A DNA stretch of 21,435 bases from a virus, in IMG/VR virus record IMGVR_UViG_3300042327_001120, positions 1 to 21,435 of that record. One strand, 5' to 3'. Shown in pieces: positions 4,814-21,435 of this stretch. Under the pieces are notes generated by a model. It made no database searches and was not told the DNA's origin. It was given only the letters and a program-made list of their open reading frames with translations. The translations under genes and the position numbers were made by a program. Numbering within the stretch: position 1 is the stretch's first letter; the number at the start of each line of letters is the position of its first letter.

Positions 4814-5040
4814 TCCTTTGGGAGTGCATACCAGCCCTCATGGATGGTAATACGGTTCTTACTACGCACCGTTTTGCCGCTGGCGTCAACAGTCCAAACC
4901 TTTGCTTCAACGCTCTCAGCGAGGCGTATAGGCTCACCGTGGGGGACGTAAATCACTCTGCTCGCGCAGCTTACGCTCATGCTCGCGCACACGATCAAGA
5001 AGACCGCGCTTAAGATCAGGTTGTTTCTTTGCGTCTTCAC
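4810..5040 (-). CDS. Small phage lipoprotein, o-spanin candidate
   Basis: A 76-residue protein starting at GTG. A basic start (MKTQRNN) is followed by a hydrophobic stretch (LILSAVFLIVCASMSV) and then SVSC at residues 22-25, a plausible though imperfect lipobox (Ser rather than Leu at -3). The mature part (SRVIYVPHGEPIRLAESVEA and a GWYALP end) matches a type of small lipoprotein I recognise from phage lysis and tail regions. The N-terminal half is encoded inside the 59-aa frame at 4934-5113, in a different frame, as Rz1 is within Rz. It would be an outer-membrane lipoprotein bridging to an inner-membrane partner at the end of lysis. Its 3' end overlaps the 55-aa gene by ATGA. Coding status is fairly sure, the spanin role is inferred. 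Confidence 0.68.
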   Translation of the reverse strand: MKTQRNNLILSAVFLIVCASMSVSCASRVIYVPHGEPIRLAESVEAKVWTVDASGKTVRSKNRITIHEGWYALPKE

Positions 5041-5113
5041 TTGAAATGTCCTTGGTCGTCAGCGCGTGAAGCCAAATGACCAACTTCATCACCAAGTCGG
5101 CCAAGAAGTTCAT
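4934..5113 (-). CDS. 59-aa overlapping ORF, i-spanin-like candidate
   Basis: A short minus-strand frame starting with an ATG that overlaps the holin-like stop (ATGA). The product begins MNFLADLVMKLVIWLHAL, a short hydrophobic helix. A charged helical stretch follows (LKRGLLDRVREHERKLREQ), ending in RPPR. Two-thirds of it overlaps the lipoprotein gene in another frame. A hydrophobic start plus charged coiled coil, with an embedded lipoprotein gene downstream of a holin, is the layout of Rz/Rz1 spanins. Weak points: the hydrophobic segment is short and contains Asp and Lys, and the protein is shorter than usual Rz. An alternative frame (5037-5243) ends at the same place but lies wholly inside the holin gene. 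Confidence 0.5.
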   Translation of the reverse strand: MNFLADLVMKLVIWLHALTTKDISSEDAKKQPDLKRGLLDRVREHERKLREQSDLRPPR

Positions 5114-5304
5114 TCCGTCTGTTTGACGGGTGCGGCAGCGGCTGATTGCTTATTCTTCCAGATCGACCAGACAGCACCGAGCAGAGTGACAGTCGCGCCA
5201 GCAATCTCGGCAACCTGATCAGCACTGGCCAACCCCTTGGCAACGAGGAAACCGCCGAGCGCGCTAAGACCGTGGCGGAGGAGGGATGAAATATTGGCGT
5301 TCAT
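5110..5304 (-). CDS. Pam3-gp28-like phage holin
   Basis: A 64-residue membrane protein: MNANISSLLRHGLSALGGFL, then VAKGLASADQVAEIAG, then a second hydrophobic stretch TVTLLGAVWSIW and a Lys/Ala-rich tail. The order helix, LASADQ linker, second helix ending near Trp matches the Pam3-gp28 family of putative phage holins, which form inner-membrane pores that release endolysin and time lysis. The frame stays open upstream to 5541, but the ATG at 5304 overlaps the previous stop (ATGA) and gives the usual family length. The following 59-aa frame again overlaps by ATGA, so the block is translated as a chain. Confidence 0.75.
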   Translation of the reverse strand: MNANISSLLRHGLSALGGFLVAKGLASADQVAEIAGATVTLLGAVWSIWKNKQSAAAAPVKQTE

Positions 5305-5495
5305 TTGTCGTTTTTGAGTTTGCGATAGAGTTCTACTGCTTTCACGGCGCATGTAAGAAGCGCGGCGAACGCGCCAAGTGCCAATGAGGCAGTCTTGAGA
5401 TTCGGATCTGAAAATACCGCGTTCCCCAGAATACCGATGATCGGACCACCGACGCCGATTGAGATATCTCGAATGAAAGCGTGGTGGTCCGTCAT
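5301..5495 (-). CDS. Small two-segment membrane protein, possible second holin
   Basis: A 64-residue protein with two hydrophobic segments (about residues 12-30, SIGVGGPIIGILGNAVF; and 37-55, ASLALGAFAALLTCAVKAV) and a basic end LYRKLKNDK. Size and topology fit class II holins or antiholins. It overlaps the Pam3-gp28-like holin by ATGA, and holin/antiholin pairs are often adjacent. No specific family is recognised. The start ATG follows the upstream stop by 8 bases. Confidence 0.65.
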   Translation of the reverse strand: MTDHHAFIRDISIGVGGPIIGILGNAVFSDPNLKTASLALGAFAALLTCAVKAVELYRKLKNDK

Positions 5496-5503
5496 CGTGA
5501 TGG

Positions 5504-5662
5504 TTAGTTAGCGAGCGGAGCCTGAGCCTTAGCGGCGTCAAGGATCAGATCGTAGAGAGGAAGTCCGGCTTTCACATTGTTGATGTTGCCAGCCTTCATT
5601 GCGATTTCCACGAGTTGCAGCAGTGTGTTGGTTTGTTCGATGGTCAGTTCAATTTTAATCAT
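5504..5662 (-). CDS. 52-aa conserved-type small phage protein
   Basis: A short frame encoding 52 residues, starting MIKIELTIEQTNTLLQLVEI and ending AKAQAPLAN. It begins with a beta strand and then forms an amphipathic helix, a pattern (strand, then a helix starting TIEQTN) seen in small proteins of unknown function near phage tail and lysis genes. Its ATG overlaps the stop of the upstream gene (ATGA at 5659-5662), which supports it strongly. No membrane segment. Function unknown. Confidence 0.72.
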   Translation of the reverse strand: MIKIELTIEQTNTLLQLVEIAMKAGNINNVKAGLPLYDLILDAAKAQAPLAN

Positions 5663-6087
5663 GCCGCCGGAGCATCCGAAACAACCGGCTGCTCGTCAAC
5701 AGCGGCGACAGGAGTTTCCGCATTGACGAGCGGCGGCTCAACCTGCGGCAACATCGGCGGAACGATTTCAACCGGCGGCAACCACGGCAGCGGCGGAGCG
5801 ATGATCGGCGGGTTGATCTGGTTCTCGATCTGTTGCGTCACGTTCGCTTCGATGGCGGTCTTGTCCACGCCGTTGGCATAGCACCAGCCGAGAACCTGAT
5901 CCTGCGTCAGATCGGGATACGGCGTGAAGTTATCGGTCGGCGGAGCGAACGACGCGCTGCCGTAGCAGGTGCCGCTGTACTGATCCTGCGAGCCGTTGCA
6001 ACGCCAGTCGGCGGTGATGACGACATCGGTGAGACTGCCTTCGGTCGGCTTAACGAGAAGGCGTTCGATGATCCAAGAGATGTTCAT
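5659..6087 (-). CDS. Tail-region protein, DUF7936-like
   Basis: A 142-residue protein. Residues 1-75 form a beta-rich domain (MNISWIIERLLVKPTEG, VVITADWRCNG, YSGTCYGSASF, TPYPDLTQDQVLGWCYANG) like the small DUF7936-type proteins found beside tail-fibre genes of podoviruses and cyanophages. Residues 92-142 are a Pro/Val/Ala-rich tail (PPIIAPPLPWLPPVEIVPP) that is probably disordered. The family's role is unknown; a virion-associated or adhesin-linked role is inferred from its place just after the tail-fibre gene. The start ATG is 11 bases after the fibre stop. Confidence 0.65.
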   Translation of the reverse strand: MNISWIIERLLVKPTEGSLTDVVITADWRCNGSQDQYSGTCYGSASFAPPTDNFTPYPDLTQDQVLGWCYANGVDKTAIEANVTQQIENQINPPIIAPPLPWLPPVEIVPPMLPQVEPPLVNAETPVAAVDEQPVVSDAPAA

Positions 6088-11545: not shown

Positions 11546-12214
11546 ATGAACGTCCATCTCACCCTCAAATCTTCAAACGCGAAAACCGGCCCTATTCCGG
11601 TTTCCACATCGTCGGCCGTCACTTGCAGTGATGCATGTCCATTCAAGAAAGACGGTTGCTATGCGGACTCCGGTCCGCTTGCGCTTCACTGGTCAAAGGT
11701 AACAAGCGGACAGCGCGGCTTTGACTGGTCTTCCTTCCTGTCTAAGGTCCGCTCTTTCCCGGCCGGGCAGTTGTGGCGTCACAACCAAGCTGGAGACTTG
11801 CCCGGTGTCGGTGACTCAATTGACGCAACCGCTCTTTCGCAATTGACGGAAGCAAACACTGGCAAGCGCGGTTTCACCTATACCCACAAACCGTTGACGC
11901 CAGATAACCTGTCCGCGATACGGTCCGCCAATGAGCGCGGTTTCGTTGTCAACCTGTCCGCGAATTCGGTGTCGCATGCTGACACCCTTGCCAAGCTAGG
12001 TTTGCCGGTTGCGGCCGTTGTCCCACAAGACAGCGCGGACCGATTCACGACACCGGAGGGCAACCGCGTTGTCGTGTGTCCTGCGCAGCGCGTTGACAGC
12101 CTGTCATGCGACAAGTGCCGCCTATGCGCCAAGGGCAACCGTGGATTCATTGTCGGTTTCAAGCCACATGGAACGGGTGCAAAGCGGGTGCAACGAATCA
12201 CAACGGCCGGTTGA
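11546..12214 (+). CDS. Gp88-like Cys-rich phage protein
   Basis: A 222-residue protein. Cysteines at 27, 31 and 38 (CSDACPFKKDGC) and 178, 188, 191 and 194 (CPAQ, then CDKCRLC) suggest a metal or iron-sulphur site. The conserved-looking segment LWRHNQAGDLPG (76-87) and TYTHKP (111-116) match the phage Gp88/DUF7227 type of protein, which occurs in many tailed phages and plasmids. Its activity has not been established to my knowledge. No membrane segment. It is the first sizeable gene after the 11384 promoter and has a CAATCCAATCACCA leader with no Shine-Dalgarno sequence. Confidence 0.78.
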   Translation: MNVHLTLKSSNAKTGPIPVSTSSAVTCSDACPFKKDGCYADSGPLALHWSKVTSGQRGFDWSSFLSKVRSFPAGQLWRHNQAGDLPGVGDSIDATALSQLTEANTGKRGFTYTHKPLTPDNLSAIRSANERGFVVNLSANSVSHADTLAKLGLPVAAVVPQDSADRFTTPEGNRVVVCPAQRVDSLSCDKCRLCAKGNRGFIVGFKPHGTGAKRVQRITTAG

Positions 12215-16227: not shown

Positions 16228-16357
16228 GCGTCGTTTAGAGCGTTTGAGCGGCATTCAAGTCGAGCGATTGAGCGACGCATCTTCTTCTTTTTCATCCCGA
16301 ACGGTTGCGACACCGCCCTCAAAGGCGGGGAGCAAGCATACCGTTTTCGGGATGAAA
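16228..16357 (+). ncRNA. Candidate structured RNA before the early-operon terminator
   Basis: The 368 bases from 16111 to 16478 hold no convincing gene. Within them, GCGTCG (16228-16233) pairs with CGACGC (16273-16278). TTTCATCCCGAA (16290-16301) then pairs perfectly with TTCGGGATGAAA (16346-16357). Inside that 12-bp stem, CGGT/ACCG, TGC/GCA and CCGCC/GGCGG (16313-16317, 16324-16328) continue the hairpin with small bulges. A terminator follows at once. This may be a small RNA or a 3' UTR protector; no known RNA family is recognised. Confidence 0.5.
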
Positions 16358-16507: not shown

Positions 16508-17021
16508 AGAGTTCGTTATGAGCTATTTACCATCAGGAAAAACACCAAGAACGATGTTCAGCCAGATGCCACCAAAGCGGCACGATCTGGACCCCAGCAA
16601 GTCGGAAGTTCTGGCCTACATCGGACAGGAGATGGGTTGCGACTTGGCGGCGGCGATACGGGCGTTCAATTCGATGCGGCATCCGAAGTGTCGGGTGCTG
16701 GTGTTCGACAAGATTGAGCGGCAGTGGAAGGGCTGCGAATTCCGACCGAGCGATGCGGAGACAAGCGAGCTGTCGATCATCCGTGAGCATCGCGCTTTTG
16801 AGCGGCAGCTAGCCGTTCTGAAGTCAACCGTGCGCCGGTTACAAGATGATGTTGAAGGCCTCAAGCGGAAGAATGCAAAGCGAAGCAAGGGCAAGAGGGG
16901 CGATGATAGGAAAGCGGGTGAGCCAGCCGACGAACCCGCTGAAGAGCAACCCGTGGAATCAACCGAACCTTCTTTGGCCGACGAGTTTGCACGACTCTTT
17001 CCGCAGTATTCTTCGAAATAA
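16485..17021 (+). CDS. Coiled-coil protein at head of replication block
   Basis: A 178-residue protein from the ATG at 16485; ATGs at 16494 and 16518 (MSYLPSGKTPRTMFSQ) are in-frame alternatives, and the last would fit a leaderless transcript. Residues 30-90 are a compact mixed region (SEVLAYIGQEMGCDLAAAIR, then CRVLVFDKIERQWKGCEF). A coiled coil at about 105-130 (AFERQLAVLKSTVRRLQDDV) is followed by a very basic then acidic low-complexity tail. Function unknown. First gene after the structured RNA region, so probably a replication or regulatory factor; that is inference. Confidence 0.62.
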   Translation: MVGMNRRLEFVMSYLPSGKTPRTMFSQMPPKRHDLDPSKSEVLAYIGQEMGCDLAAAIRAFNSMRHPKCRVLVFDKIERQWKGCEFRPSDAETSELSIIREHRAFERQLAVLKSTVRRLQDDVEGLKRKNAKRSKGKRGDDRKAGEPADEPAEEQPVESTEPSLADEFARLFPQYSSK

Positions 17022-17039
17022 CCCAGAAACCAACAGACT

Positions 17040-17486
17040 ATGGAAACCGATAAACTCACACAACTTGAACAAAATTTTGCAACGCTTGCCGGTTTCGTCG
17101 AGCGAGCAACCAAGAGTTTAGGCAGGATCGAAAAAACTTTGAAGGAGCATGAACGCAAGATCGATGAAGCGTTACAGCGTTCGTCCTATCAGGAGGACGA
17201 CGACGACTCTTGCGAAGGCTTCGGCCCGAAGCCAGAGCGGCAACCGTTCAATCCGAACGCCGAAACGTACACCCTGGAACTCCGCAACGGCCCGTACACG
17301 ATCCGACGCGACGACGGCGAATCCGATAAGGAATGGCAACGGCGCAAGGATCATCTCATGGATCAGCGCGTGACGTTCCTCAATGGCAGCGGCGTGAACG
17401 GAACACCGGAGCAGGTGGCCTACCTCCAAAGAATCGAACAACGACTAGGCCGAAAAATTTTTGAAAATCCTCTTGCAACGACTTGA
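17040..17486 (+). CDS. Phage protein with N-terminal coiled coil, unknown function
   Basis: A 148-residue protein. The N-terminus (METDKLTQLEQNFATLAGFV, ERATKSLGRIEKTLKEHERK) forms a coiled coil up to about residue 45, followed by an Asp-rich link (QEDDDDSCEGF). The C-terminal 80 residues (TYTLELRNGPYTIRRDDGES, DKEWQRRKDHLMDQRVTFLN) are mixed strand-helix and charged. No motif of a known enzyme. It lies 18 bases after the previous stop and is followed by a structured 100-base gap. Confidence 0.62.
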   Translation: METDKLTQLEQNFATLAGFVERATKSLGRIEKTLKEHERKIDEALQRSSYQEDDDDSCEGFGPKPERQPFNPNAETYTLELRNGPYTIRRDDGESDKEWQRRKDHLMDQRVTFLNGSGVNGTPEQVAYLQRIEQRLGRKIFENPLATT

Positions 17487-17532
17487 GACGACTGCAACAC
17501 TACGTCCGCAACGATGACAATTTTTTGGCAAC
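17475..17532 (+). repeat. Spaced GCAAC words before the structured leader
   Basis: GCAAC occurs at 17475, 17494, 17508 and 17528, spaced 19, 14 and 20 bases, the last within the 5' arm of the hairpin at 17526. The spacing is irregular, so iterons are possible but weakly supported. Confidence 0.3.
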
Positions 17533-17605
17533 TGGGCGTAGAGCGTGTTGAGGTAACACGACAGGGTGTTTTGGATTTCACCCGTGATTGATCACCCAGT
17601 TGCCA
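17526..17605 (+). ncRNA. Candidate three-helix RNA leader before the HTH gene
   Basis: TGGCAACTGGG (17526-17536) pairs perfectly with CCCAGTTGCCA (17595-17605). Inside, CGTGTT/AACACG (17544-17549, 17555-17560) and GGGTG/CACCC (17564-17568, 17579-17583) form two further hairpins, giving a three-way junction. CACG (17557-17560) could instead pair with CGTG (17583-17586), so two folds compete. It lies 15 bases before the TTG at 17621. It could be a regulatory leader, a protein-binding site or part of an origin; no known family is recognised. Confidence 0.5.
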
Positions 17606-17620
17606 TCCCCCTTTTCAAAC

Positions 17621-17917
17621 TTGAAAGTCTACACCGCCAAAGCCACAGCAGCGATGCTCCAAATCTGCACCGAGACGCTAAGGCGAATCGTTCGCAACGA
17701 CGGCATCCAGCACAGGAGAATTGGCCGACGAATCCTTTTCACGGAAGCCGACATCGCGGCGATTCTTGAGAGTCGAGCAATGACCGGAGCTGTGAATCCA
17801 TACGCAGCCAAGAAACCAAAACAGCAGATAGAGAATACAAATGAGCAACAACCTACAAACCAACCTGACGGTAGCAGTGCCGTCTCAAACGCAATCGCTG
17901 GCAACGACCAGCACTGA
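17621..17917 (+). CDS. Excisionase/MerR-type helix-turn-helix protein
   Basis: A 98-residue protein beginning at TTG (MKVYTAKATAAMLQICTETL, then RRIVRNDGIQHRRIGRRILF, then TEADIAAILES). Residues 3-50 are a winged helix-turn-helix of the HTH_17/excisionase type: YTAKATAAMLQI, TETLRRIV, then a basic wing RRIGRRILF. Such proteins bind DNA as recombination or transcription factors. The tail is polar (KQQIENTNEQQPTNQP). TTG at 17588 is rejected because it lies in the structured leader; ATG at 17654 would cut the HTH. It overlaps the annealing-protein gene by 77 bases and probably regulates this block. Confidence 0.68.
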   Translation: MKVYTAKATAAMLQICTETLRRIVRNDGIQHRRIGRRILFTEADIAAILESRAMTGAVNPYAAKKPKQQIENTNEQQPTNQPDGSSAVSNAIAGNDQH

Positions 17918-18674
17918 CAGCGGAGAGTTCTACTCTCGAATCGGGACATCGCTTGAAGCGGTGAAGGAACTCGGATCTTGGATTGCCAGGAGCGGAGTCT
18001 TTAATTGTCAGAAGGATGAGCAAGGGAACATGATTGCCCTTGAGTGTCTGGCCACACGCAAGACTCCGTTCGATTTCAAGCGAGAGTTTCATCTGGTCAA
18101 CGGATCGTTGACGATGCGGTCAGACGCGATGCTTGCCGGTTACCGGACTCGCGGCGGTAAGGTCATCTGGAAGCAGTTCGATTCGACTGCCGCGATTGGC
18201 ATCTGGAAGTACGACGGCAACGAATGCGAAATCGGATTCACCGCAGAAGATGCGAAGCAAGCTGGCCTATTACCCGCAAAGCCAGGATCTGGCTGGCAGA
18301 AAGATCCGTCGGCTATGCTCCGCGCTCGCTGCATCTCGAAGGCTATCCGCATGCTGGCTCCCGAGGTTGTTGCCGGTGTTTATGCCACCGAGGAAGCCGC
18401 CGACTTCAACACCCCATCAACACCCGCTCAACCCACTCCGACGCGCCAGACGGTCAATGTGACGCCGGAATCGACCTTCTCGCTGACAGACAAGCTGGAG
18501 CAAATCCTCGAACCGCACAGCGACATCGCCAATGCGTTCCTGCTCTCGAAGAACCTAATCAAGGAAGGTCAGAACTTCCGCGATGTCTCGACCAAGGTGG
18601 CCAACATGATCGTATCCGATCCTGACAGCTTCATCTCCAAGGCTAAGGCATTTTCAGCTCCTACACTCGAATGA
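17841..18674 (+). CDS. RecT/Red-beta-type single-strand annealing protein
   Basis: A 277-residue protein. After a polar Ser/Thr-rich start (SQTQSLATTSTDSGEFYSRI), the core reads LGSWIARSGVF, then DFKREFHLVNGSLTMRSDAM, LAGYRTRGGKVIWKQF, WKYDGNECEIGF, then DPSAMLRARCISKAIRMLAP and EVVAGVYATEEA. This order fits phage RecT-like annealing proteins, which coat single strands and pair them during recombination and repair. The C-terminus (SLTDKLEQILEPHSDIANAF) is helical. It overlaps the exonuclease gene by ATGA, the usual partner arrangement, which strengthens the call. No ATPase motif is seen, as expected for this class. Confidence 0.7.
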   Translation: MSNNLQTNLTVAVPSQTQSLATTSTDSGEFYSRIGTSLEAVKELGSWIARSGVFNCQKDEQGNMIALECLATRKTPFDFKREFHLVNGSLTMRSDAMLAGYRTRGGKVIWKQFDSTAAIGIWKYDGNECEIGFTAEDAKQAGLLPAKPGSGWQKDPSAMLRARCISKAIRMLAPEVVAGVYATEEAADFNTPSTPAQPTPTRQTVNVTPESTFSLTDKLEQILEPHSDIANAFLLSKNLIKEGQNFRDVSTKVANMIVSDPDSFISKAKAFSAPTLE

Positions 18675-19465
18675 GTATTCTAAACCGCCACATCAACTTC
18701 GACATGCCAGCCGAGAAGTATCACGCCGTTGACGCTCTCTCAAAGTCGATGATGACCAAGATCCTCAAGTCACCGGCGCACTACAAAGCCGCGCTGGACG
18801 AGCATCAGGAGCCAACGAAAGCTATGCAGATGGGTACGGCGATTCATACCGCTGTTCTCGAACCGCAACTCTATTCTCAGGTTGTCGCCGTTGTCCCACC
18901 GGACATCGACGGTCGGACCAAGGAAGGCAAAGCGTGGAAGGAGCAGCACAAGTCACGCATCCATCTGACTCATGCCGAGGACATCGATGTCCAGGGCGTC
19001 GCGAACAGTGTCCGTCGCCATCCGTTCTGGGACATCATTCATCTTAACCACAAGATCGAAGCCAGTGTGTTTGCCGAGGACGAGGAAACCGGCATTCCTC
19101 TGAAAGCTCGCCCTGATCTTTGGGTCGAGGACCACACCCTGGTCGATGTGAAAACAACGGACGACGCATCGCCTGAAGCGTTCAGCCGCACAATCACCTC
19201 GTTCGGCTACCACATTCAAGCCGCGCACTATCTGGCCATGACCGGAGCGGAGAACTTCATCTTCGTCGCCGTGGAACGCAAAGCTCCGTACGCCGTTGGC
19301 ATCTATCGGCTCGACATCGAGTGGCTTCAGGCCGGTGAGAATCTGCGGCGTAAAGCCATCTCGACGCTCCACGAGTGCCGCGCACTGGACAGTTGGCCAG
19401 CCTATCCGACAGCGACACAAACACTTTCATGCCCGAAATGGGTGCTGAATAAATCCGAGAGTTAG
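18671..19465 (+). CDS. RecE-like 5'-3' exonuclease (PD-(D/E)XK, DUF3799 type)
   Basis: A 264-residue protein. The start YHAVDALSKSMMTKILKSPAHYKAAL and MGTAIHTAVLEP (residues 54-65) match the N-terminus of the RecE/DUF3799 exonuclease family. The metal site is Glu130 (NHKIEASV), Asp149 (ARPDLW), Asp159-Val-Lys161 (VDVKTT), with Gln183 and Tyr187 (GYHIQAAHYLAM) after it. Such enzymes resect double-strand ends to leave 3' tails for the partner annealing protein, here the gene just upstream. The active-site set looks complete. Confidence 0.85.
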   Translation: MSILNRHINFDMPAEKYHAVDALSKSMMTKILKSPAHYKAALDEHQEPTKAMQMGTAIHTAVLEPQLYSQVVAVVPPDIDGRTKEGKAWKEQHKSRIHLTHAEDIDVQGVANSVRRHPFWDIIHLNHKIEASVFAEDEETGIPLKARPDLWVEDHTLVDVKTTDDASPEAFSRTITSFGYHIQAAHYLAMTGAENFIFVAVERKAPYAVGIYRLDIEWLQAGENLRRKAISTLHECRALDSWPAYPTATQTLSCPKWVLNKSES

Positions 19466-19491
19466 ACCACAATCCAAATCCCTAAAACAAT

Positions 19492-19926
19492 ATGTTCAAA
19501 GTTAATCGCAAAGACGCCGGAGGCAGCTACATCAACGCTGAAGGCGAGTACACCGTCACCGTGATGAAGGTCGAGGAAACGCTCGACGCCAAGGGCCGCG
19601 AGGTCTGCAAGGTGACATTCGCAACCGAGGACGGATCGAGCATCGCCGACCGTTTTATCAACCAGGAGAATGTCTGGTTCCGCGTGAATCAGCTTGTCGC
19701 CGCCACCAACCACAATGTGCCAGATGGAACCGAGGTGGACTTCCTCGGCGTCAAGGGCAGCTATGCCAACTTCCTGCGCTCAATGATTGGTCTTGAGCTG
19801 GCCATCACCGTTCGTGCTGAAGAGTACGAATCGAATGGCGAGAAGAAGAGGGCGTATCGCATCAAGAACATGAAGGCAGCTCCTGCGCCGACTGCTCCTG
19901 AGTCTGACGAAGAAAAGCCGTTCTAA
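19492..19926 (+). CDS. DUF669-like ssDNA-binding protein candidate
   Basis: A 144-residue protein of mostly strands: MFKVNRKDAGGSYINAEGEY, TVTVMKVEETLDAKGREVCK, then VTFATEDGSSIADRFINQEN and VDFLGVKGSYANFLRSMIGL. This is the shape of DUF669-type phage proteins that accompany recombinases. The tail ends SDEEKPF, an acidic tip finishing in Pro-Phe, which resembles the C-terminal peptide by which bacterial SSBs call partners. I infer ssDNA binding and partner recruitment. It follows the exonuclease by 26 bases with a G-poor leader. Confidence 0.65.
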   Translation: MFKVNRKDAGGSYINAEGEYTVTVMKVEETLDAKGREVCKVTFATEDGSSIADRFINQENVWFRVNQLVAATNHNVPDGTEVDFLGVKGSYANFLRSMIGLELAITVRAEEYESNGEKKRAYRIKNMKAAPAPTAPESDEEKPF

Positions 19927-19996
19927 ACTAAGGAAGACGGGGGGAGGGGAGCGCATTCCTAGTTAACGCTCAAACCTAAGAATTCAATTCGCATCC

Positions 19997-20641
19997 ATGA
20001 AAGTCAAAATCGCAGCAATCACAAAACCACTTGTCGGCGACGGTAACATGACCGCATCCGACTTCATCACGTTCGCCGCCCGTGTCAGCAATCCGTCGAA
20101 CCAGATGAGTCTGCTCACCGCTCCAAAACTACTGGCCTACTGCATCAAGAACGGCCACTGGAGCATTTTCGAGCAGGCCAGTATGACGGTCGAGATTCAG
20201 ACCAGCCGCGCCATCTCCGCTCAGATCATCAGACACAAATCGTTCTGCTTCCAGGAGTGGAGCCAAAGATATGCGCCAAGCGATGTTCCCGAGCCGGTCG
20301 AACTTCGCACTCAGGATCGAGTCAACCGCCAGGGAAGTGGTGATTCGTTCGATCAAGACTGGGCGTACGACGCGGTGGCCAAGTCTGTCGATCTTGCGTT
20401 CAAGACCTATCGCCAGCTCCTCCAGGAGGGTGTGAGCCGCGAGACTGCTCGCATGGTTCTTCCGCTCTGCACGCAGACGACGCTGTACATGACTGGAAAC
20501 ATTCGCTCATGGATTCATTACTTCGAGCAGCGGTGTGCGAAGGGTACGCAGAAGGAGCATCGCCAGATCGCGCTGGCCATTCGAGACGGCATTTTTGCCG
20601 AGCATTTCCAGGTCATCCATGAGGCAATTACGAGCGAATAA
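19997..20641 (+). CDS. thyX: Flavin-dependent thymidylate synthase ThyX
   Basis: A 214-residue protein. RHKSFCFQEWSQRY (79-92) is the ThyX signature (usual form RHRxxSxNExSxRY). Nearby SIFEQASMTVEIQTSR provides the N-terminal FAD/dUMP site residues, and GTQKEHRQIALAI the C-terminal helix. ThyX converts dUMP to dTMP with FAD and NADPH and methylene-tetrahydrofolate, with no dihydrofolate made. Phages carry it to raise dTTP during replication. The length is usual for phage versions. The first Ser of the usual signature is shifted (KSFCF), but the fold is intact. It has a 70-base leader with a purine-rich stretch. Confidence 0.96.
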   Translation: MKVKIAAITKPLVGDGNMTASDFITFAARVSNPSNQMSLLTAPKLLAYCIKNGHWSIFEQASMTVEIQTSRAISAQIIRHKSFCFQEWSQRYAPSDVPEPVELRTQDRVNRQGSGDSFDQDWAYDAVAKSVDLAFKTYRQLLQEGVSRETARMVLPLCTQTTLYMTGNIRSWIHYFEQRCAKGTQKEHRQIALAIRDGIFAEHFQVIHEAITSE

Positions 20642-20642
20642 A

Positions 20643-20804
20643 ATGAACAAACCCAAACCCAAACGTCCCGTTGCCAAGATGTTTGTCGTGTCAGACGACA
20701 CGCACAAGCGACTCAAAGAATACGCAAAGCGCAAAGGCTACAAACTGCAATACGTAGCAGATGAGGCGGTGAGTGAGTACTTGGAAGGAAAGGAAACGAA
20801 ATGA
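20643..20804 (+). CDS. RHH/CopG-like small DNA-binding protein, 53 aa
   Basis: A 53-residue protein starting one base after the ThyX stop. MNKPKPKRPVAKMFVVSDDT, then HKRLKEYAKRKGYKLQYVAD and EAVSEYLEGKETK. A basic start, one strand, and two helices (THKRLKEYAKRKG and LQYVADEAVSEYL) fit the ribbon-helix-helix fold. These form dimers and often repress their own operon. The frame is open upstream inside thyX, but the ATG at 20643 is the sensible start. The next gene overlaps by ATGA with an AAGGA site. Confidence 0.68.
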   Translation: MNKPKPKRPVAKMFVVSDDTHKRLKEYAKRKGYKLQYVADEAVSEYLEGKETK

Positions 20805-21055
20805 GCGACACCCCAATATCAGACAGCACACCGCACAACGTGGCCGAACTCGGCATGCTGTGCAGGAGTCTCGAACGCGACCTCACCGCGTCCAATGCAA
20901 TCATCCGTCAGCAGCAATTGTTGGATGAAGAGAACCTGCGGCTGCAAGAGCGCATCAAGCGGTTGGAGCGTGAGATTGAAGTGCTTCGATTCTATGGAAA
21001 CAAGGGATGCACAGCGGTTGCTGATAAAATACTAGCTAGGAATGCAAAGATATGA
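20801..21055 (+). CDS. 84-aa coiled-coil protein, paralogue of last gene
   Basis: An 84-residue protein: MSDTPISDSTPHNVAELGML, then CRSLERDLTASNAIIRQQ and a coiled coil (LDEENLRLQERIKRLEREIE), ending VLRFYGNKGCTAVADKILA. The closing segment YGNKGCTAVAD recurs as YGNKDCTAMAD in the gene at 21216, so they are paralogues. This form (ending RFYGNKxCTAxAD) seems a recurrent phage protein of unknown function. It overlaps the next gene by ATGA. Confidence 0.66.
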   Translation: MSDTPISDSTPHNVAELGMLCRSLERDLTASNAIIRQQQLLDEENLRLQERIKRLEREIEVLRFYGNKGCTAVADKILARNAKI

Positions 21056-21219
21056 ACGAAGAACTACTGACCAAACTATTGGAATACATTGACGCGGCAA
21101 TCGACGCAAAATCTGAACAAGCGAGAGAATCGTCTGACGGAGGATTGGTTGAGGCGGTCGTAAAATTTCGCGTAAGAGATGAACTGTTCAGTCTAATTAA
21201 AAAGGAGGCCAAGCCGTGA
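21052..21219 (+). CDS. 55-aa small protein, unknown function
   Basis: A short frame of 55 residues: MNEELLTKLLEYIDAAIDAK, SEQARESSDGGLVEAVVKFR, VRDELFSLIKKEAKP. It is helical with both ends overlapping neighbours (ATGA at the start, GTGA at the stop). The AAGGAGG ribosome site of the next gene lies within its last codons. No family recognised. Confidence 0.65.
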   Translation: MNEELLTKLLEYIDAAIDAKSEQARESSDGGLVEAVVKFRVRDELFSLIKKEAKP

Positions 21220-21435
21220 ATCTACCAAAATCAAGCATCATTGATGAGATAGCAGATCATCGTGACGAACTGCTAAATGAGAACAGAAAACTCAACCAAC
21301 GCATCAAGCGGCTGGAGGAGGCTTTGGACAAGACATCAAAAGCAGCGTGTAAACACATCAAACAGTTGGAGAGCGAAGTGTATGCGCTTCGACTCTACGG
21401 CAATAAGGACTGCACAGCTATGGCCGATCAAGCGT
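21216..21435 (+). CDS. Coiled-coil protein paralogous to 20801-21055, 3' end cut by window
   Basis: The frame starts at GTG overlapping the previous stop (GTGA), with a strong AAGGAGG ribosome site 8 bases before it, and is still open at the window end (73 codons seen). MNLPKSSIIDEIADHRDELL, then a coiled coil (NENRKLNQRIKRLEEALDKT), then LYGNKDCTAMADQA. It aligns with the C-terminal half of the gene at 20801-21055. Function unknown. Confidence 0.65.
   Translation, partial: MNLPKSSIIDEIADHRDELLNENRKLNQRIKRLEEALDKTSKAACKHIKQLESEVYALRLYGNKDCTAMADQA

Follow-up and report, generated by a model that had tools for sequence, protein, structure and literature searches.

The window analysed here, i.e. 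the whole stretch of 21,435 nucleotides constituting positions 1 to 21,435 of the IMG/VR virus record IMGVR_UViG_3300042327_001120, contains an element of 80 bases (17526-17605, plus strand) which takes the form of a three-way junction and is placed directly before an operon of recombination genes. The features of this region are as follows.

17473-17501, plus strand: predicted promoter, with the -35 box TTGCAA (17473-17478), a 17-base spacer and the -10 box AACACT (17496-17501)
17514-17591, plus strand: small upstream open reading frame (ORF), ATG to TGA, 25 codons, crossing the structure
17526-17605, plus strand: whole three-way junction of the putative leader RNA (covariance model R1, 61 distinct homologues)
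17526-17536, plus strand: 5' strand of helix P1; two-sided changes in 10 of 11 pairs, 95.8% of cells paired
17537-17543, plus strand: junction J1/2, CGUAGAG here; consensus NNUAGAG, with the U and the last G invariant
17544-17560, plus strand: P2 hairpin, a 6-bp stem with a GAGNN pentaloop (GAGGU here)
17564-17583, plus strand: P3 hairpin, 5 bp here and shorter in most relatives; U-rich loop
17584-17594, plus strand: junction J3/1, GUGAUUGAUCA here; invariant A, C and A near the 3' end
17595-17605, plus strand: 3' strand of P1, pairing with 17526-17536; 15 nt to the start codon
17621-17917, plus strand: HTH_17/excisionase-like protein with a TTG start (Pfam PF12728, E 1.9e-10; PHROG 1840, excisionase)
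17841-18674, plus strand: RecT-like single-strand annealing protein (PHROG 561, E 2.4e-22)
18671-19465, plus strand: exonuclease VIII-like nuclease (PHROG 412, E 2.1e-79; PF12684, DUF3799)
19492-19926, plus strand: SSB-like protein (PHROG 378, E 1.7e-9)

An initial annotation, made from the window alone, had read the genes as those of an HTH regulator, an annealing protein and an exonuclease, in agreement with the Pfam and PHROG matches, and had described an 11-bp stem enclosing hairpins of 6 and 5 bp, 15 bases before a TTG codon, an anatomy that proved exact on inspection of the sequence. The strands of P1 (TGGCAACTGGG and CCCAGTTGCCA) pair perfectly over 11 bp; P2 joins 17544-17549 with 17555-17560 around the loop GAGGT, P3 joins 17564-17568 with 17579-17583, and 15 bases intervene between the 3' end of P1 and the TTG codon at 17621. 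Across the junction, an extra pair between G17541 of J1/2 and C17562 forms the closing pair at the base of P2; it is flipped to C-G in three sequences (alignment columns 16-38). The 80-mer folds well both as RNA (z = -3.85; 0 of 200 dinucleotide shuffles equal) and as DNA (z = -4.97; 0 of 200 shuffles equal). Covariance model R1 assigns the window 87.8 bits (E 1.9e-21), the window itself being one of its training rows. Since a second perfect inverted repeat, of 12 bp, is present in the window (16290-16357), such a repeat is not decisive by itself, and it is the covariation among relatives that decides.

Distribution and covariation in related phages

Using the HTH protein as a query against the IMG/VR viral contigs, we obtained 79 relatives, in whose upstream DNA the element precedes the HTH gene wherever sufficient sequence is available. 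In a second HTH-based set it was found in 79 of 80 contigs, the exception (L342) ending just before the gene, so that none of the 79 HTH contigs that extend upstream lacks it. The HTH gene is the first gene after the element at every locus inspected. A context-free DNA pattern applied to the whole viral collection recovered 59 stretches, and those displayed with downstream sequence lie before related HTH genes or before a second tandem copy; the exact P1 and P2 pattern of the window had no match in the viral contigs. The same context-free pattern gave 11 matches in 84,980 bacterial and archaeal genomes, which we regard as chance matches, the covariance model having recognised no element in them. 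The element therefore appears, from its sequence distribution, to be confined to one uncultured phage group. A mobile, MITE-like repeat was also considered and rejected: the record containing the window has a single copy, and the relatives searched carry the element at this locus only.

Pairs of elements in tandem were found in a number of lineages (L018/L099, L022-L024, L026, L030, L032-L034, L080, L155, L157, L160, L162, L174 and L177), with further tandem copies among the loci inspected later, and the second type of element also occurs on its own (L285, L286 and L293). The recurrence of tandem copies in several lineages suggests selection for sharper control. No homologue of the HTH protein was found among isolated phages, in which the best match of the annealing protein belongs to the Verrucomicrobia phage P8625. 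The matched region of P8625 contains no convincing element, and a Verrucomicrobiota host is therefore only a hint. In nine relatives (L008, L010, L012, L020, L021, L025, L031, L040 and L062) the HTH and annealing genes are separated by an additional ORF of approx. 160-205 codons, which contains Cys-x-x-Cys motifs and may encode a homing endonuclease. In L112 (approx. 5001-6053) these two genes apparently form one frame of 350 codons, a possible natural fusion.

For the covariation analysis, unique elements were chosen by hand and aligned, and a covariance model was built from them and used for searching and realignment. At least 80 related phage sequences have retained the base pairs by means of matched mutations. 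Among 61 distinct homologues, pairing-preserving changes on both sides were observed for 20 of the 22 pairs, and 91.2% of the cells pair (71.8% after shuffling). The covariation score was 0.569 against 0.217 for shuffled data, with partner-slid controls at or below 0.123, in the 61-element alignment, which was fitted to the model; a MAFFT alignment that predates any model agrees (0.508 vs 0.191). By parsimony on a tree built from the coding DNA of the neighbouring HTH gene we counted 160 double compensatory changes, as compared with a mean of 32 and a maximum of 42 in 100 shuffles, a count that is approximate given the short gene segment. All six pairs of P2 have two-sided changes (95.6% of cells paired). 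The weakest helix is P3, in which four of the five modelled pairs show such changes but the paired cells amount to only 75.8%; two pairs are well conserved and the rest are variable. Covariation in related phages, which the initial annotation had named as one way to check the structure, is therefore present, and the helices are maintained by compensating changes rather than broken without them. The element is confirmed as a real feature, and the case for it is stronger than could be known from the window.

While the helix sequences vary freely, certain unpaired nucleotides remain fixed: UAGAG in J1/2, the nearly invariant G, A and G of the P2 loop, AC in J2/3, and U, A, C and A in J3/1. Such a combination suggests a specific binding partner, either a protein or a ligand, which would recognise the conserved junction and the GAGNN loop; this fixed core amid varying helices makes the partner directly testable. 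A switch between two folds, in which CACG would exchange partners between two copies of CGTG, had also been proposed. This pairing exists in the window, but an equivalent is possible in only 2 of the 61 homologues, and we rejected it as a conserved switch. A kissing contact between loops L2 and L3 was likewise discarded, the complementarity being equal to that of swapped sequences; with these two candidates tested, no alternative conserved fold incompatible with the first was found.

The changes within the helices also bear on the question of which nucleic acid is under selection. In a palindrome, what reads as G-T on one strand reads as A-C on the opposite one, and double-stranded DNA should therefore tolerate both types of cell equally. 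In the 18 interior pairs we counted 30 changes to G-U and a single change to A-C (85 and 49, respectively, in column shuffles), the A-C cells being clustered at helix ends. This asymmetry points to selection acting on the plus-strand RNA and not on a double-stranded palindrome. The DNA cruciform that the initial annotation had offered as an alternative is thus not supported, and the analysis yielded no evidence for the origin it also mentioned. Its suggestion of a regulatory leader, by contrast, is supported by the covariation, the promoter-like sequence, the constant placement before the operon and the strand-specific G-U pairs. A structure in plus-strand single-stranded DNA would be a less simple reading than RNA, because a promoter-like sequence lies upstream.

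Transcription, translation and the candidate effector

The spacer of the predicted promoter ends with CTGC (extended -10), and transcription would be expected to start at approx. 17507-17510. A simple consensus promoter scan did not list the version present in the window. Nearly every lineage has the pattern TTGnnn-17-nAnnnT upstream of the element; its -10 box is usually preceded by CTGC, and its -35 box is often TTGACA. The distance between the promoter-like -10 box and P1 varies from 4 to 24 nt; in L141 the -10 box ends only 4 nt before the aligned element, and the RNA would therefore begin almost at P1. On the other side, 9-16 nt separate the end of P1 from the start codon, for single elements and for the last of tandem copies, while the second tandem copy (b) of L099 overlaps the ATG start.

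No Shine-Dalgarno (SD) site is present between P1 and the HTH start, and an SD-like 4-mer precedes only 4 of the 26 starts of the main ORFs of the window, which suggests that initiation in the host group is largely independent of SD sites. With SD sites rare in this genome and absent at the HTH start, the accessibility of the start region is expected to be important, and the phage offers a test case for a leader structure controlling translation without SD sites. No intrinsic terminator (a G+C-rich stem followed by a U run) was called at the element, which argues against a switch of the terminator type.

The reading that we favour, with slightly better than an even chance of being correct, is that of a leader RNA which acts in cis on the translation of the HTH gene at the head of the operon, with a phage protein as the more likely effector. 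Transcription would proceed from the promoter-like sequence; formation or stabilisation of P1 and the junction would hinder loading of the 30S subunit at the SD-less HTH start, and an effector recognising the conserved junction and the GAGNN loop would set the balance. The start codon lies beyond P1 in nearly all members, so that any occlusion is indirect, and the short spacing between P1 and the start could instead reflect the compactness of the genome. By analogy, a protein of the same operon is a more likely effector than a metabolite; we might guess at the SSB, annealing or HTH protein, acting by autogenous feedback as do gp32 and gp43 of phage T4. The T4 SSB (gp32) and DNA polymerase (gp43) bind structured leaders and repress translation (PMC3014915). 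Like the T4 gene 32 and gene 43 operators, the element lies just before a phage DNA-metabolism gene, and its operon contains SSB-like and RecT-like genes, which invites comparison with the autogenous operator of the gp32 type. The T4 leaders are a pseudoknot (gp32) and a single hairpin (gp43), whereas this candidate operator, from unrelated phages, has a three-way junction and precedes an HTH gene.

A second explanation, possible but unlikely, is that the element represents a new class of metabolite-sensing riboswitch acting on HTH translation, its aptamers being in tandem in some phages. A P1-P2-P3 architecture and conserved junction nucleotides are found in purine and other three-way-junction riboswitches, and the element, compared at the level of overall architecture, shares both, together with conserved nucleotides in one loop and freely varying helices. 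Its tandem copies resemble the arrangements known for the glnA and pan RNAs, and such copies have been reported for riboswitches and riboswitch candidates (PMC2864571). Unlike the purine-type riboswitches, it has no supported loop-loop contact and no Rfam riboswitch match up to E 10, and its target gene and operon, which never differ, include no metabolic function; a further argument against this possibility is that it occurs in one phage group only, the matches in the bacterial and archaeal genomes being chance-like. Were it nevertheless correct, a riboswitch-like class of a single uncultured phage group would, singly or as tandem receptors, sense a small molecule or an infection-state signal and gate translation of the recombination operon in a system with little use of SD sites.

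Slightly more doubtful, though still in contention, is an antiterminator, whose nascent RNA would bind the host RNA polymerase on its departure from the early promoter and permit reading through terminators of the recombination operon. The model for such a function is put of phage HK022, whose antitermination involves the zinc-binding domain of the RNA polymerase beta' subunit. The put RNA acts in cis, is approx. 70 nt long and directly follows an early promoter; putL lies just downstream of PL and works without dedicated protein factors (PMC9378689). The element is of similar length (approx. 80 nt), also lies directly after a promoter-like sequence, of early type and travelling together with it, and precedes a recombination operon; P2 and P3 are adjacent and close to that sequence, but P1 encloses them. 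The put RNA is described as two stem-loops that no long stem encloses, whereas P1 is the longest well-kept helix of the element. The GAGNN loop and the tandem copies are further differences, and the narrow distance of 9-16 nt to the start codon would not be predicted. Moreover, the six terminator-like sites in 17000-21435 are a chance number, and the plus strand has just one of them.

Very unlikely, in our opinion, is a 5' mRNA stabiliser or processing signal, or an attenuator based on a translated leader peptide. The structure does lie near the presumed 5' end, and in many relatives a small ORF begins with an ATG just before P1, its frame in some of them ending at the HTH start. The length and frame of this ORF differ among relatives, it is missing in several lineages and in others single-base indels break the frame; a conserved function is thus not probable, and the leader peptide from the ATG at 17514 was rejected. 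For a stabiliser, the conserved junction and loop nucleotides would be needless. In lineages in which the small ORF ends at the HTH start codon (TGATG or TGAATG), translational coupling would be permitted.

Least probable of all is an element acting as DNA (a cruciform, a single-strand origin or an operator for the HTH protein), for which the perfect 11-bp inverted repeat, the good folding as DNA and the adjoining HTH gene could be cited, but against which stand the excess of G-U over A-C changes expected of one strand as RNA, the promoter-like sequence just upstream, and stem letters which, unlike those of an operator, vary freely with pairing kept.

Relation to known RNA families and other features of the window

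The window has no match in Rfam 15 at gathering thresholds, and three diverse members gave nothing credible there at E values up to 10, weak matches such as mir-2834 and SNORD87 being judged to be due to chance. No description of the element was found in the openly accessible literature. Within a known kind, the structured leader RNAs of phages, it constitutes a new family, and adds a covariation-supported member to the few such leaders that bear on replication or recombination genes. Like the STAXI motif (Weinberg et al. 2010), it is a structured element repeated near genes for SSB and DNA-handling proteins (PMC2864571); STAXI is a repeated pseudoknot, whereas the element is a three-way junction, usually single and always before one gene.

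Other features of the window were also recorded. The segment 16290-16400, within a long intergenic stretch, forms a strong hairpin with a perfect outer stem of 12 bp (z -4.25); it is directly followed by a G+C-rich hairpin with a T-rich tail, resembling a terminator, and may represent a separate small RNA or terminator. The ORFs at 1-576 and 1122-1796 were judged, by reading only, to encode proteins similar to LPS-type glycosyltransferases (family 25-like, with a LEDDV/VEDDV motif), and the one at 11546-12214 encodes a DUF7227 protein (Pfam PF23872, E 9.8e-92).
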